Shown: in pieces, positions 41,943 to 46,699 of the stretch
Layout: each line of letters begins with the position of its first letter
Numbering within the stretch: the stretch's first letter is position 1
Source of the DNA: Larkinella terrae
Lineage (GTDB): Bacteria > Bacteroidota > Bacteroidia > Cytophagales > Spirosomataceae
Direction of reading: 5' to 3'
Assembly (NCBI RefSeq): GCF_009668025.1
Contig: NZ_WJXZ01000009.1
Location: 310,001 to 374,000, forward strand
Length of the DNA stretch: 64,000 bases
Made by a program: the position numbers and the translations under genes
Notes under the pieces: model-generated
What the model saw: only the letters and a program-made list of their open reading frames with translations
What the model was told of the DNA's origin: nothing
The model's database searches: none

Positions 41943-43349
41943 CTATTTCTCAACAATCGCGTCCAGCAACGGAGGAACCGGAACCACGCCCGCCCGGTGT
42001 TTTTCAAACTCCTTTTTCAAATCTTCCAGAATGTCGGGGTGCTTGCTACCAATTTCATACCGCTCGCCGGGATCGACTTCGAGGTTGTACAGCAGAGCCG
42101 GATCGTGCGGAGTCGGGGCTTCGGGCGAATACGACGGATGCGTCGTAAAATGGGCTTTCCACGGCCCTTTCCGAATGGCATACAACCGATCCGAATCGTA
42201 ATAATAGACCAGCTCCGTTCCTTTGTCCGTTTTGCCCGCCAGCAAATCCGCGATGTTTTGCCCGTCCAGTGTCCGGTCCTTCGGCAACTCAACTTTCGCC
42301 AGATTCAATATCGTCGGAAAAAGATCCATCGACGTCGCCACCGCTGACGAAACGGTGTTGGCTTTCACCAAACCGGGTCCCCAGAAAATGGCCGGAACGC
42401 GCATTCCGCCTTCGTACGTGGAACCTTTCGCTTCGAACAGTGGTCCGGCGGAGCCACCGTTTTCTTCCAGCCGGTTTTTAATCAGCCAGGGCCCGTTGTC
42501 GCTCAAAAAGACGACCACGGTATTTTTATCCAGCTTCAGGTCTTTCAGTTTTTTAAGAATCTGGCCCACGCTCCAGTCCAGTTCCTCGACCACATCGCCG
42601 TACAAACCGCGTTTGCTTTTGCCCAAAAAACCGTCCGAAGCATACAGCGGAACGTGCGGAAAAGGACTTGCGTAATACATAAAGAACGGTTTTCCCTTGT
42701 TGGTCGAAATAAATTTCAGGACCTCATCCGTGTAGCGTTTGGTCAATAACCGCTGGTCCGGTTCGGTTTCAATGATCTTGTTGTCGCGGTACAAGGGCAA
42801 AGGCGGATTTGAATTTGGCGGAGCAGGTGCCGATGCGGTATTGCCAAACGAACCAACTTTACCCATGTCGTTTGAATAGGGTAAACCGAAATACGAATCA
42901 AAACCGTAGTTCAATGGCAGGTATTGCGGCTGCGAACCCAGGTGCCACTTCCCCACCAAACCCGTTTGATAACCTTTGGTTTTCAATGCTTTGGCAATCG
43001 TCACTTCGCTGGGAGGCAGTCCGTTGGCCGAGTTGGTGAAGAAAACCACCCGTTTGCCAAAGATGCCGTTGCGAACCGGCAAACGTCCGGTCAGCAAGGC
43101 CGCCCGGCTGGGTGTGCAGACGTTAGCGGCCACGTAAAATTGCGTAAACCGGGTTCCTTCGTGGGCCATTTGATCGAGATGGGGCGTCCGGATGGTCGGA
43201 TGGCCGTAACAACCCAGATCACCATACCCCAGATCGTCCGCCAGAATGACGATAAAATTGGGTTGTTTGGCCGGTTGTGCAGCCACAAAATAGAAAGTCG
43301 ATAGTACCAGTAGGGAAAATAGAAAAGCGGTTTTGTGAATTTGGGTCAT
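41943..43349 (-). CDS. Exported sulfatase, formylglycine type
   Basis: A 468-residue type I sulfatase. Signal peptide ends VAAQ (about 25). ADDLGYGD supplies metal-binding Asp residues; the maturation motif CTPSR has Cys78, to be converted to formylglycine, so an FGE or anaerobic maturase must exist elsewhere; TGLVGKWHLG gives further active-site Lys and His; and VVFLSDNGP the second metal Asp-Asn. The family removes sulfate esters from glycans or small molecules. The esterase follows after 39 bp, so the pair may strip sulfate and acetyl groups from the same glycan. The gene is divergent from the hydrolase at 43479. AAAACCGCC touches its stop codon. Confidence 0.92.
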   Translation of the reverse strand: MTQIHKTAFLFSLLVLSTFYFVAAQPAKQPNFIVILADDLGYGDLGCYGHPTIRTPHLDQMAHEGTRFTQFYVAANVCTPSRAALLTGRLPVRNGIFGKRVVFFTNSANGLPPSEVTIAKALKTKGYQTGLVGKWHLGSQPQYLPLNYGFDSYFGLPYSNDMGKVGSFGNTASAPAPPNSNPPLPLYRDNKIIETEPDQRLLTKRYTDEVLKFISTNKGKPFFMYYASPFPHVPLYASDGFLGKSKRGLYGDVVEELDWSVGQILKKLKDLKLDKNTVVVFLSDNGPWLIKNRLEENGGSAGPLFEAKGSTYEGGMRVPAIFWGPGLVKANTVSSAVATSMDLFPTILNLAKVELPKDRTLDGQNIADLLAGKTDKGTELVYYYDSDRLYAIRKGPWKAHFTTHPSYSPEAPTPHDPALLYNLEVDPGERYEIGSKHPDILEDLKKEFEKHRAGVVPVPPLLDAIVEK

Positions 43350-43424
43350 ACTCGTGCGATTTTTATCCAGAACGCAAATAAACGGTATTATTGGTGATTA
43401 GTCGATTCGAAAACGCATCTAATT

Positions 43425-43455
43425 TTGCCTGCATTCCAAAAAACATTTACATTAG
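43425..43455 (+). promoter_or_regulatory. Probable promoter of the esterase gene at 43479
   Basis: TTG at 43425-43427, a 20-nt spacer and TACATTAG at 43448-43455 fit the Bacteroidota pattern with one mismatch in the -7 box. The start codon is 23 nt downstream. Confidence 0.45.
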
Positions 43456-43478
43456 CACAACCCTAAAATCGACCTGAA

Positions 43479-44648
43479 ATGCGATCCTCTTTGACCTGTT
43501 CCTTTGTGATTTCCCTCCTGTCGTTAAGTGCCTTTGCCCAGCCCAATCCCAACCGTCCTGATTTGCGTCAGGGTGCTTATTTCAGCGAACCCGACGGCGC
43601 AAAAGCACTTCAGAATTGTGCGCTGGCCTACAATGATAAAGCATCGTGGGAAAAACGGGCGGCAATGATTCGCCAAGGCATCCGGGAAGGATTGAAACTC
43701 CCGGACAAACCGAACTTCGCTCCTCTGAAACCGATCAGCCACAGTTTGCGACAAATGGATGGCTATACCGTTAAAAATGTGGCCTTTGAAAGTTTGCCCG
43801 GTTTTTACATCACCGGAAACCTGTATAAACCAACCGGCATGTCGGGAAAAACCGCAGCAGTGTTATGTCCGCACGGCCATGTCGCCAACTCAGATGCCCG
43901 GTTTGTGGAACAGACGCAGCAACGTTGTATTACAATGGCGAAAATGGGAGCCGTCGTGTTTGTATACGACATGCTGGGTTACGGCGATTCAAAGCAGTGC
44001 GACCACAAGCTACCAGAAGCCGCTAAATTACAGACGCTTAACAGCATTCGCGCGCTGGATTACCTGACCGGTTTGCCGGAAGTCGACACGAACCGGGTGG
44101 CGGTTTCGGGCGAATCCGGCGGGGGAACCCAGACGTTTTTGCTGACCGCCCTCGATTCGCGGGTGAAGGTCTCCGTACCGGTCGTCATGGTTTCGGCTCA
44201 TTTCTTCGGCGGCTGCGTTTGCGAAAGCGGTATGCCGATTCACAAACGGCCTACGTTTGAAACCAACAACGTCGAAATTGCCGCGCTGGCAGCACCGCGC
44301 CCGATGATTATGATCTCGGACGGTGGCGACTGGACCAAAAACACACCGAATGTCGAATTTCCGCATGTGCAGCGGATTTACAGTTTTTATGGGGCCAAAA
44401 ACAAAGTCGAAAACGTTCACCTGCCGAATGAGAAACATGATTTTGGCCCATCTAAACGGGTGGCGGCCTACCGGTTTCTGGCCCTTCACCTGAAACTCGA
44501 TTTGAACAAAGTGATGAAAAACGGGCATATCGACGAAAGCTCCAATGTCCTTCTCAAACCCACTGATTTGCAGGTTTTTACTGAGGCCCATCCCCGCCCG
44601 TCCAACGCCGTGATGGGCGATGACGCGGTCATGGCGCTGCTGAAGTAA
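43479..44648 (+). CDS. Exported alpha/beta hydrolase, acetylxylan-esterase-like
   Basis: A 389-residue exported alpha/beta hydrolase (signal ends SAFAQ, about 21). The sequence resembles the AXE1/Abhydrolase_7 group: PHGHVAN for the oxyanion region, VSGESGGGTQ with nucleophile Ser near residue 213, ISDGGDW for the acid and NEKHDFGPS for the catalytic His. Likely role: removal of acyl groups from a plant or algal polysaccharide or from a xenobiotic ester. It is divergent from the sulfatase, sharing a 129-bp promoter gap, and may be co-regulated with the sulfatase and sialate esterase. Exact substrate unknown. Confidence 0.8.
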   Translation: MRSSLTCSFVISLLSLSAFAQPNPNRPDLRQGAYFSEPDGAKALQNCALAYNDKASWEKRAAMIRQGIREGLKLPDKPNFAPLKPISHSLRQMDGYTVKNVAFESLPGFYITGNLYKPTGMSGKTAAVLCPHGHVANSDARFVEQTQQRCITMAKMGAVVFVYDMLGYGDSKQCDHKLPEAAKLQTLNSIRALDYLTGLPEVDTNRVAVSGESGGGTQTFLLTALDSRVKVSVPVVMVSAHFFGGCVCESGMPIHKRPTFETNNVEIAALAAPRPMIMISDGGDWTKNTPNVEFPHVQRIYSFYGAKNKVENVHLPNEKHDFGPSKRVAAYRFLALHLKLDLNKVMKNGHIDESSNVLLKPTDLQVFTEAHPRPSNAVMGDDAVMALLK

Positions 44649-44986: not shown

Positions 44987-46120
44987 ATGAATCGTCGAAA
45001 CTTTCTACAAACGGCCGGGTTGGGTTCGCTGGCCGTTGCTGCCGGAGCTAGTTCCTGTACCACTCGAATGGGAGCGTCGTCCGCCCAGGCGATGCATCAC
45101 GTTCCTAAATTAAAGCTTTCACTGGATCGGATTGTGAAGGAAACCGTGGGTCTGCGCCCGTTTCGGGCATCCGGTCCGCGAATTGCCAAAGAAACCCTGG
45201 GAAGCAAAACCATCGTCCACAATTACGGCCACGGTGGCAGCGGCTGGTCGCTATCGTGGGGAACCGGCAATCTGGCGCGCGAACTCGTTCAGACGACCGG
45301 CGAAAAAAAAGTGGCCGTTCTGGGTTCGGGCACCGTTGGGTTAGCAACGGCGCGCCTGCTGCAGGAAAAAGGGTGTGAGGTAACGATTTACACCAAAGAT
45401 TTACCGCCCAATGTAACGAGCAATCTGGCTACCGGAACCTGGTCACCGGCGTCGCGGGTTTGCGACCCCAAAATCGCTACCCAGGCTTTTCATGACCAGT
45501 GGGAAACCGCCACCCGGTTTTCGTTCCGGCGGTTTCAATTTATGCTCGGAATGGACGATATTGTGTCGTGGGTGGATGAATATGGCGTCAGTAACGAACC
45601 GTTCCGGCAACAGATAGACCCGTCGATTGGCGGGGAAGTGTACCATTTGCCCGGCTTGATTCCGGAACGGAAAGAGCTGAGTCCCAGGGAGCATTCCTTC
45701 GGAGCCAGATACGTTTCCTGGCGGTCCAGTATGATGTTCAATATTCCAAGTTACCTCCATCACCAGCTCAGCACGTTCATCATGTTAGGCGGAAAATTGA
45801 AAGTTCAGGAGATTAAAAAACTGGAAGATATCGACGCCCTGCCCGAACTTTGCGTTGTCAACTGCATGGGGTTGGGTGCGAAAGAAATTTTCAATGATCA
45901 GGAATTAACCCCCATTTCAGGCCAACTAGCCTGTTTGATTCCCCAAAGTGAAGTGACTTATAAACTCAATGCGCGAGGAGCCAATATTATTTCGCGAAAA
46001 GACGGAATTTACCTGGGTGGCAACGGTATTATAGGAAACTGGGATACTACGCCCAAACGCGAGGTAACCGAGAAATTCGTCGATACGATCCAGCAGGTAA
46101 TGAAAGAAATGAGAAGTTGA
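44987..46120 (+). CDS. Tat-exported D-amino-acid-oxidase-like flavoprotein, apparently circularly permuted
   Basis: A 377-residue FAD-dependent oxidoreductase of the D-amino-acid oxidase (DAAO) family, which turns D-amino acids into imino acids and peroxide. It has a twin-arginine signal (NRRNFLQTA) and possibly a lipobox (GASSC, Cys24), so it is periplasmic. The conserved blocks are in an unusual order. The substrate-Arg block VGLRPFR (Arg57) and the HNYGHGG block (78-84), which end canonical DAAOs, come before the FAD motif GSGTVG (113-118), which normally starts them. The rest follows the usual order (ATGTWSPASR, VVNCMGLGAKEI) and ends at GGNGIIGNWD plus a helix, exactly where canonical enzymes continue into the Arg block. 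The longer frame from 44918 is rejected because it precedes the Tat signal. A RidA-like gene follows after 42 bp. Confidence 0.82.
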   Translation: MNRRNFLQTAGLGSLAVAAGASSCTTRMGASSAQAMHHVPKLKLSLDRIVKETVGLRPFRASGPRIAKETLGSKTIVHNYGHGGSGWSLSWGTGNLARELVQTTGEKKVAVLGSGTVGLATARLLQEKGCEVTIYTKDLPPNVTSNLATGTWSPASRVCDPKIATQAFHDQWETATRFSFRRFQFMLGMDDIVSWVDEYGVSNEPFRQQIDPSIGGEVYHLPGLIPERKELSPREHSFGARYVSWRSSMMFNIPSYLHHQLSTFIMLGGKLKVQEIKKLEDIDALPELCVVNCMGLGAKEIFNDQELTPISGQLACLIPQSEVTYKLNARGANIISRKDGIYLGGNGIIGNWDTTPKREVTEKFVDTIQQVMKEMRS

Positions 46121-46162: not shown

Positions 46163-46699
46163 ATGAACTCTACTTTTGTGAGAAACATCTGTACCTTTTT
46201 AATCATCGGTTTTGCGGTATTTTCAAATGCGGTTTTTGGCCAGTCGGTTGAGGCTAAACTCAAAGAGCAGGGCATTGAACTCGCCAAACCCACGCCCTCT
46301 CTGGCCAATTATGTGAAAGCCGTGCGAACCGGAAATCTGATTTTTTTATCCGGGCACGTGTCCAACCGGGCCGACGGAACCGGCATTAAAGGCAAAGTGG
46401 GGAAAGACCTGACGGTGGAACAGGGCTATGAAGCCGCCAAATTGTCGGCTATTGGATTGCTTTCTTCCCTGAAAGCCGAAATTGGCGATCTTAACAAAGT
46501 AAAACGGGTCGTAAAAGTACTTGGCATGGTGAATTCAACGCCTGATTTTACGGATCATCCCAAAGTAGTGAACGGCTGTTCAGATCTGTTGGTAAAGGTT
46601 TTTGGAGATAAAGGCAAACACGCTCGTTCGGCAGTGGGGGTGGCTGCTTTACCATCCGATTACGCCGTTGAGGTCGAAATGATTGTTGAAGTGGAATAA
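46163..46699 (+). CDS. Exported RidA-like (YjgF/UK114 superfamily) protein
   Basis: A 178-residue protein: signal peptide (to VFGQ, about 27), then a RidA-type domain of about 150 residues. Typical blocks are NLIFLSGHVSNR, GYEAAKLSAIGLLSSLKAE and KHARSAVGVAALPSDYAVE. RidA enzymes hydrolyse reactive enamines and imines. In E. coli RidA the catalytic Arg105 sits in VARLP; here the site reads VAALP, so the Arg is an Ala, as in one trimeric side branch of the family. Deaminase activity is therefore uncertain. It follows the DAAO-like gene by 42 bp on the same strand and is also exported, which suggests handling of the imino products or another ligand. Confidence 0.87.
   Translation: MNSTFVRNICTFLIIGFAVFSNAVFGQSVEAKLKEQGIELAKPTPSLANYVKAVRTGNLIFLSGHVSNRADGTGIKGKVGKDLTVEQGYEAAKLSAIGLLSSLKAEIGDLNKVKRVVKVLGMVNSTPDFTDHPKVVNGCSDLLVKVFGDKGKHARSAVGVAALPSDYAVEVEMIVEVE

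Follow-up and report, generated by a model that had tools for sequence, protein, structure and literature searches.

The window analysed here is a stretch of 64,000 nucleotides from Larkinella terrae, the host genome being 7.85 Mb in size. On its plus strand, positions 44987..46120 hold the coding sequence of a 377-aa flavoprotein that resembles D-amino acid oxidase (DAAO) and that we regard, from the order of its sequence blocks, as circularly permuted. The ATG lies at 44987 and the stop codon ends at 46120, in agreement with an earlier note on this DNA. The closest relative by name is a protein of Larkinella rosea, with 93% identity, and the window's family is presumably Spirosomaceae.

The protein opens with a Tat-like start, MNRRNFLQTAGLGSLAVAAGASSC (44987..45058), which includes R3 and R4 and ends at a lipobox-like Cys24. 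Two blocks follow whose canonical place is C-terminal: VGLRPFR, the substrate-carboxylate Arg block, at residues 54-60 (45146..45166), and HNYGHGG at residues 78-84 (45218..45238). Residues 85-108 (45239..45310) correspond, to judge by the rotation peak and the spacing described below, to the canonical C-terminal stretch, from which a few residues lead to the old N-terminus. Only then comes VAVLGSGTVG, the FAD dinucleotide motif (residues 109-118; 45311..45340), whose canonical place is N-terminal. GGNGIIGNWD (residues 344-353; 46016..46045), comparable to canonical stretches of the GGTxxxGxWD type, precedes a new C-terminal tail of 24 residues (354-377; 46046..46117), placed by the rotation scan and the family alignment. 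All of these features are on the plus strand. The earlier note had read the same order, from the Arg block through HNYGHGG, the FAD motif and GGNGIIGNWD to the tail, and was right that every block occurs once and about where HNYGHGG and VAVLGSGTVG lie; VGLRPFR, which it gave as residues 55-60, begins one residue sooner.

Downstream on the same strand, 42 bases past the stop of the permuted gene, lies a gene for a RidA/YjgF-family protein (46163..46699) with a start that looks by eye like a signal peptide. The protein matches PF14588 with 71.1 bits (cut-off 35) and PF01042 with 53.8 bits (cut-off 27.3). Its R155, invariant in 14/14, is the residue that we equate by eye with Arg105 of RidA. Changing that arginine almost abolishes imine hydrolysis, according to the accessible part of PMC4433059. 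Both the Tat-like start and the RidA neighbour are additional to what the earlier note described. On the other side of the permuted gene, positions 41943-44648 carry a sulfatase gene (minus strand) and an acetyl-xylan-esterase-like gene, with no evident link to it.

Block order and the position of the new ends

Scanning genome contigs turned up 102 relatives, and 80 of them were kept. In the loci that were fetched, 199 open reading frames (ORFs) of 150 aa or more were classified; 186 were distinct, 162 of them permuted and 24 canonical. Permuted queries were used to fetch these loci, so 162 against 24 gives no measure of relative commonness.

The window protein as a whole matches the Pfam family DAO (PF01266) with 92.6 bits (cut-off 27.9). 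The match falls into two swapped stretches, with profile positions 291-352 first and 1-299 afterwards, and the phmmer alignments displayed for DAAO and DASPO chains of the PDB have the swapped order as well. For a rotation scan, window residues 36-377 were cut at each residue in turn and scored on a canonical-order profile made from 24 bacterial relatives. The best rotation, at residue 105, scored 173.6 bits in a single alignment over profile positions 3-313; the unrotated protein scored 117.9 bits, and the median across all rotations was 125.2. With this peak the window protein departs from the canonical block order, and in place of an N-terminal GxGxxG it has GSGTVG (residues 113-118) downstream of both the Arg block and HNYGHGG. 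As a control, five canonical proteins were scanned, each against a profile from which it had been left out, and none peaked more than 6 residues from no rotation. Eleven of 13 further permuted ORFs peaked at the same cut as the window protein; in L143 and L193 the peak was off the expected cut, and the aligner splits the match in both. When a fixed cut was applied to 159 permuted ORFs (3 of the 162 were dropped for missing columns), the best-domain score rose in 147/159 (median +60.5 bits), 12/159 showed no gain, and 138/159 matched in one piece after rotation.

A duplication followed by partial loss that left extra blocks was considered and rejected, since more than one profile domain was present in just one of the 162 permuted ORFs, and that ORF keeps the permuted order. 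The Pfam swap, the rotation scan and this single multi-domain case thus bear out the earlier reading of a permutation rather than a loss or a duplication. The protein also ends where canonical enzymes continue into the Arg block, as that reading had it and as the rotation scan and the family alignment indicate. The same reading placed a linker of about 20 residues between the old C-terminus and the old N-terminus, which was mistaken. The distance from H78 to G113 is 35 residues in 138/162 permuted ORFs, and the summed free arms of the 24 canonical relatives have a median of 39 residues, so the supposed linker is the canonical C-terminal segment. Judged by this spacing, the old termini are fused almost directly, without a new linker, and the new ends fall between the stretch after NWD and the segment that bears VGLRPxR.

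Conservation of the order among orthologues, which the earlier note had proposed to look at, extends to the window and 80/80 aligned relatives. R57 and P58 are invariant in all 81 rows, ahead of HNYGHGG and GxGxxG. A stricter text pattern passes 65/81 rows, and among the other 16 those printed show CTRP, CLRP or GHRP, not GLRP. The note had also raised the prospect of an assembly error. The 80 relatives come from other assemblies, many of them titled isolates, and keep the order, and the window gene is a single open frame; we therefore reject a misassembly, frameshift or chimera that mimics a permutation, to which we assign a negligible probability. Taken as sequence, the window protein is a member of the DAAO lineage with a circularly permuted gene.

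A profile of 30 permuted proteins matched 29 distinct PDB sequences at E <= 1e-5, and 17 of these are DAAO or DASPO. The best cited matches are DASPO 6rkf (1.3e-39) and DAAO 7ct4 (1.2e-37) and 1c0i (1.2e-32). In the stretch listed for each of the 17 DAAO/DASPO sequences we found no permuted order: the best stretch has the FAD part at the chain start or, in 9vpf, the Arg/HNYGHGG part at the chain end. This canonical placement argues that no solved permuted structure is among them. The window enzyme has in common with DAAO and DASPO (PF01266; 6rkf, 7ct4, 1c0i, 1kif) the GxGxxG, Arg-Pro, HNYGHGG and GGxxxxGNWD-type blocks, and it differs from them in the rotation of these blocks, the Tat-like start and a variable equivalent of Y223. 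Other flavoenzyme models fit it far less well. NCBIfam models of D-amino acid dehydrogenase score 32.3 bits (cut-off 383) and 27 bits (cut-off 494), and the ThiO glycine oxidase model TIGR02352 scores 40.8 bits (cut-off 250.8) on the FAD segment, its best stretch covering residues 109-157 only.

Spread and origin of the permuted branch

By their titles, the 80 relatives belong to Bacteroidota, Acidobacteriota, Gammaproteobacteria, Alphaproteobacteria, Gemmatimonadota and Candidatus Eremiobacterota. MAGs are numerous among them and include the Candidatus Eremiobacterota relative, and the records of Larkinella, Runella, Dyadobacter, Dyella and others carry strain titles. One contig titled Thalassovita (L050) may be mis-binned, because its proteins group with Bacteroidota and a SusD-like gene is near. 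This contig carries two permuted genes in same-strand tandem (L050:2498-4975), both with Tat-like starts. Multiple permuted paralogues also occur within single genomes, G298 having a fragment besides five long matches, and G304 three matches.

Whole-genome samples were searched with the permuted profile at E <= 1e-15. In the window's phylum, 22/296 genomes match, of which two have a full-length permuted protein (one being the window's), one has a very divergent permuted protein (L106) and 19 have canonical proteins. L106 is a 464-aa frame with a Tat-like start in which YRPMR and CNYGHGG replace GLRPxR and HNYGHGG. The phylum of L061's genome gave 33/297 matches, 26 strong (5e-91 or better) and seven weak, and the four weak ones that were fetched are canonical. 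The phyla of the genomes of L064, L085 and L087 gave 18/349, 32/150 and 11/98 matching genomes, and one match of the last group, L207, is canonical. Among plasmid records six match. Four are annotated simply as 'FAD-dependent oxidoreductase', a label under which the permuted branch lies hidden, and two have no annotated gene at the match. One of these two, an 11.85-Mb Nonomuraea record, matches in one piece over query positions 31-375, which argues that the permuted order occurs in Actinomycetota too. Search rules that require an N-terminal GxGxxG would miss such enzymes.

The rearrangement probably happened once. A tree of 50 rows was built from 27 permuted proteins, rotated for alignment, and 23 canonical ones, with the long-branch L106, L207 and L002 left out. 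A single branch separates the two orders (100 bootstrap / 99 SH-aLRT), and it is present in 100% of 200 bootstrap trees. This parting is consistent with one rearrangement, the tree being unrooted. In an earlier quick tree that included L106, L207 and L002, the canonical set formed one side of a branch (99), and two changes were required for the permuted set, next to which one distant outgroup row was placed. As a root, L002, a paralogue from the window's own genome, has too long a branch. Related flavoprotein families begin with the FAD motif, and it is from this background, not from the tree, that we take the direction of the change to be from canonical to permuted.

DAAO is a textbook flavoenzyme that is used in biotechnology. 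The permuted form in several phyla suggests that the sequence of DAAO can accept new ends at a specific point, and perhaps a permuted DAAO might serve as a scaffold for engineering and export. Among the matches listed in our literature search, which was confined to titles and abstract openings and left subscription journals mostly outside, we found no description of a natural permuted DAAO. On present evidence the permuted proteins make up a real and widespread branch of the DAAO family with export-like signals. A natural permutation in another class of exported flavoprotein is that of the circularly permuted FMN-bind proteins of bacterial extracytosolic electron transfer; as the accessible text of PMC11334425 describes them, they differ in having another domain (FMN-bind) and a covalently bound flavin.

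The N-terminal signal and the neighbouring genes

The new N-terminus was scored with a crude Tat rule: a start codon, RR within 30 residues and, after it, 9 or more consecutive residues with none of D, E, K, R, N, Q or H. Leaving aside L165, which the rule could not score, 153/161 permuted ORFs are Tat-like, and a lipobox-like Cys is found in 138 of the 153. The same rule picks 0/24 canonical ORFs and 73/704 background open frames of at least 300 aa. Seven of the eight failing ORFs come from the phylum of L087's genome, and in several of these a hydrophobic start is preceded by just one Arg or by Lys-Arg; the eighth, L162, is a frame cut just ahead of the domain. Among the alignment rows of the window and the 80 relatives, R3 is present in 80/81, R4 in 81/81 and C24 in 73/81. 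The window protein itself has the twin Arg, the hydrophobic stretch and the lipobox-like Cys (MNRRNFLQTAG...ASSC, by the crude rule), and its match to the Pfam TAT_signal model is weak (15.3 bits, under the cut-off of 22.7). Going by these patterns, the new N-terminus is Tat-like, and a lipobox-like Cys is usually part of it.

When the flanks of the 80 relatives' loci were searched with a profile, 17/80 proved to have a RidA-type gene; a single-sequence phmmer search, an underestimate, had found 3. In the other 63 loci, some with short flanks, the profile search found none, and the flanks of all 26 Dyadobacter-titled loci gave no RidA-type gene. We thus reject the idea of a RidA gene beside every permuted gene. 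The count in a wider set is 19/173 permuted-gene loci, a set that includes re-fetched copies and many short flanks. In 14 loci, L089 and 13 of the 80, the RidA gene is divergent and upstream. It follows the permuted gene on the same strand in L009, L010 and L090 (the window), precedes it on the same strand in L043, and is two genes on and on the opposite strand in L051. The window's arrangement recurs in five further fetched loci of its genus (L224, L228, L229, L232 and L233), some of which may be from the same species as one another or as L009 and L010. The hydrophobic signal-like starts of the RidA proteins in these loci were judged by eye. The RidA link is seen in Bacteroidota loci only. 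One literature search on signal-bearing, periplasmic Rid proteins gave no paper.

Within the window's family, 49/150 genomes have the permuted gene (50 matches, all in permuted order); G1213, of the window's own genus, is without it. A divergent RidA subfamily, different from the window's RidA, is present in 28/150 genomes of the family. In 27 of the 28 this RidA gene and the permuted gene are divergent neighbours, their matches 144-307 bases apart. The 28th, G1312 (92% complete, 310 contigs), has a RidA remnant interrupted by two stops, and no permuted gene was detected in it. The chance of such an overlap is 2.7e-15 if kinship is ignored, a figure that is too strong given kinship. Among the family loci L208-L235, from which two more same-genus hits were left out, 25/28 have a RidA-type gene; none was found within the flanks of about 1.5 kb in L227, L231 and L234.

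Flank clustering of the 80 loci and Pfam searches of 28 chosen neighbour frames found no neighbourhood conserved across phyla. Other neighbours of permuted genes include DNA ligase, helicase, amylase and transporter genes. In 23/26 Dyadobacter loci a gene that reads as threonine-aldolase-like is nearby, and the one that was scanned matches PF01212 (Beta_elim_lyase). Cytochrome c genes lie directly downstream of permuted genes at L240:4092-4520, L190:2667-3941 and L196:2756-4150. On the Kozakia plasmid the gene begins 5 bases after the permuted gene, and in L190 and L196 frames with Pfam cytochrome c matches begin 20 and 85 bases after it. Among the loci up to L207 there are 40 CXXCH frames within 6 kb, and those of L190 and L196 are within 100 bases downstream with a Pfam cytochrome c match. 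As a general neighbour, cytochrome c is rejected, being directly downstream in these three cases only. L137 has a CXXCH frame 50 bases downstream that looks by eye like another protein, and heme proteins may be encoded by frames further off, among them those of L012 and L084 and, about 0.6 kb upstream with two CXXCH each, those of L041, L044 and L045.

The neighbourhoods bear on the reading that the exported flavoprotein is catalytically idle or sensory, its fold kept for binding only. To our knowledge no activity is recorded for the permuted enzyme, and outside Bacteroidota we found no conserved gene neighbourhood, both of which would suit such a role. Against it, the FAD and carboxylate residues are invariant over the 162 permuted ORFs, and the RidA gene of G1312 has decayed in a genome where the permuted gene is undetected. 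We consider an idle or sensory protein very improbable and favor an active enzyme.

Conserved residues and a possible reaction

The Arg-Pro pair that would bind the substrate carboxylate, R57 and P58, is present in 162/162 permuted ORFs, as are G81, H82, G83 and G84 of HNYGHGG and G113, G115 and G118 of the FAD motif; H78 is present in 158/162. In a comparison of 28 permuted and 24 canonical rows, the residues invariant in both orders (28/28 and 24/24) are G113, G115, G118, S145, D304, P309 and G312, together with R57, P58, R60, N79, Y80, G81, H82, G83, G84, G86 and G92. The invariant FAD motif, Arg-Pro and NYGHGG make FAD binding and a carboxylate-bearing substrate the natural reading. Conserved in the permuted set only are Y325 (27/28 rows; in canonical proteins G, A and S are commonest there), Q320, F238, K74 and R48, which suggests that substrate specificity may differ. 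The position of yeast DAAO Y223 is N333 in the window protein, and a Tyr stands there in 59/162 ORFs by one alignment and in 20/28 representatives. As stated in the accessible part of PMC9844085, the GxGxxG fingerprint of DAAO is N-terminal, and across DAAOs only this fingerprint and the carboxylate Arg stay conserved and the Tyr does not, so the active-site Tyr is no longer a strict criterion for a DAAO.

We consider the window protein most likely to be a periplasmic FAD-dependent amino-acid oxidase or dehydrogenase that has RidA as its partner in the window's family. It would fold and take up FAD in the cytoplasm, leave in folded form through the Tat system and stay in the periplasm, often as a lipoprotein. 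R57 would hold the substrate carboxylate while FAD oxidized an amino acid, perhaps a D- or small one by kinship, to the imino acid. For the window's family, the next step would be hydrolysis of this imine to a keto acid and ammonia by a co-exported RidA-type deaminase. The electrons would pass to O2 in an oxidase or to a respiratory acceptor in a dehydrogenase, and for the window protein the two are equally possible. The cytochrome c genes downstream of the permuted genes in Kozakia, L190 and L196 would suit a periplasmic dehydrogenase and hint at one, at least in those three genomes.

Known Rid proteins offer parallels for the imine step. UK114 hydrolyses imino acids formed by D- or L-amino acid oxidases (per the accessible part of PMC5979572). 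In Pseudomonas aeruginosa, the Rid protein DadY deaminates the imine that is released by the flavin amino-acid dehydrogenase DadA, as described in the part of PMC9714295 that was available. That part makes no mention of export signals; in contrast, both members of the window pair have signal-like starts. The RidA-type neighbour makes a periplasmic pathway of amino-acid oxidation testable.

The same permuted fold might instead act on a substrate other than an amino acid, such as another amine or a hydroxy acid, with RidA handling another reactive product. The lack of conservation at the Y223-equivalent, the different pocket suggested by Y325, Q320, F238, K74 and R48, and the variety of neighbouring genes are compatible with this. 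Yet R57-P58 is invariant, and the Arg, not the Tyr, is what DAAOs conserve (PMC9844085, in the part available); two RidA types in differing arrangements also fit an imine product. Such a substrate is therefore unlikely in our estimation, and we retain the proposal as a whole, that of a permuted DAAO-lineage enzyme that is exported by Tat, oxidizes amino acids and is paired with RidA in the window's family, as probably correct.

A broader scenario can be offered tentatively, and with clearly less confidence. Perhaps one ancient permutation founded an exported, multi-phylum branch of DAAO and freed the new N-terminus for a Tat signal and a lipid anchor. The result might be a periplasmic deamination module that sends electrons to the respiratory chain and the imine to an exported RidA.

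In L051, an aminotransferase class V gene with an apparent Tat signal (by eye) lies directly downstream of the permuted gene (L051:6199-7533), and a RidA-like gene lies further on past it. Serine hydrolase/peptidase-like genes adjoin permuted genes at L240:1-2777 and L064:6197-8233, with PF00144 in both and an S9 peptidase also in L240, and the hydrolases and peptidases of these two loci possibly supply substrate.
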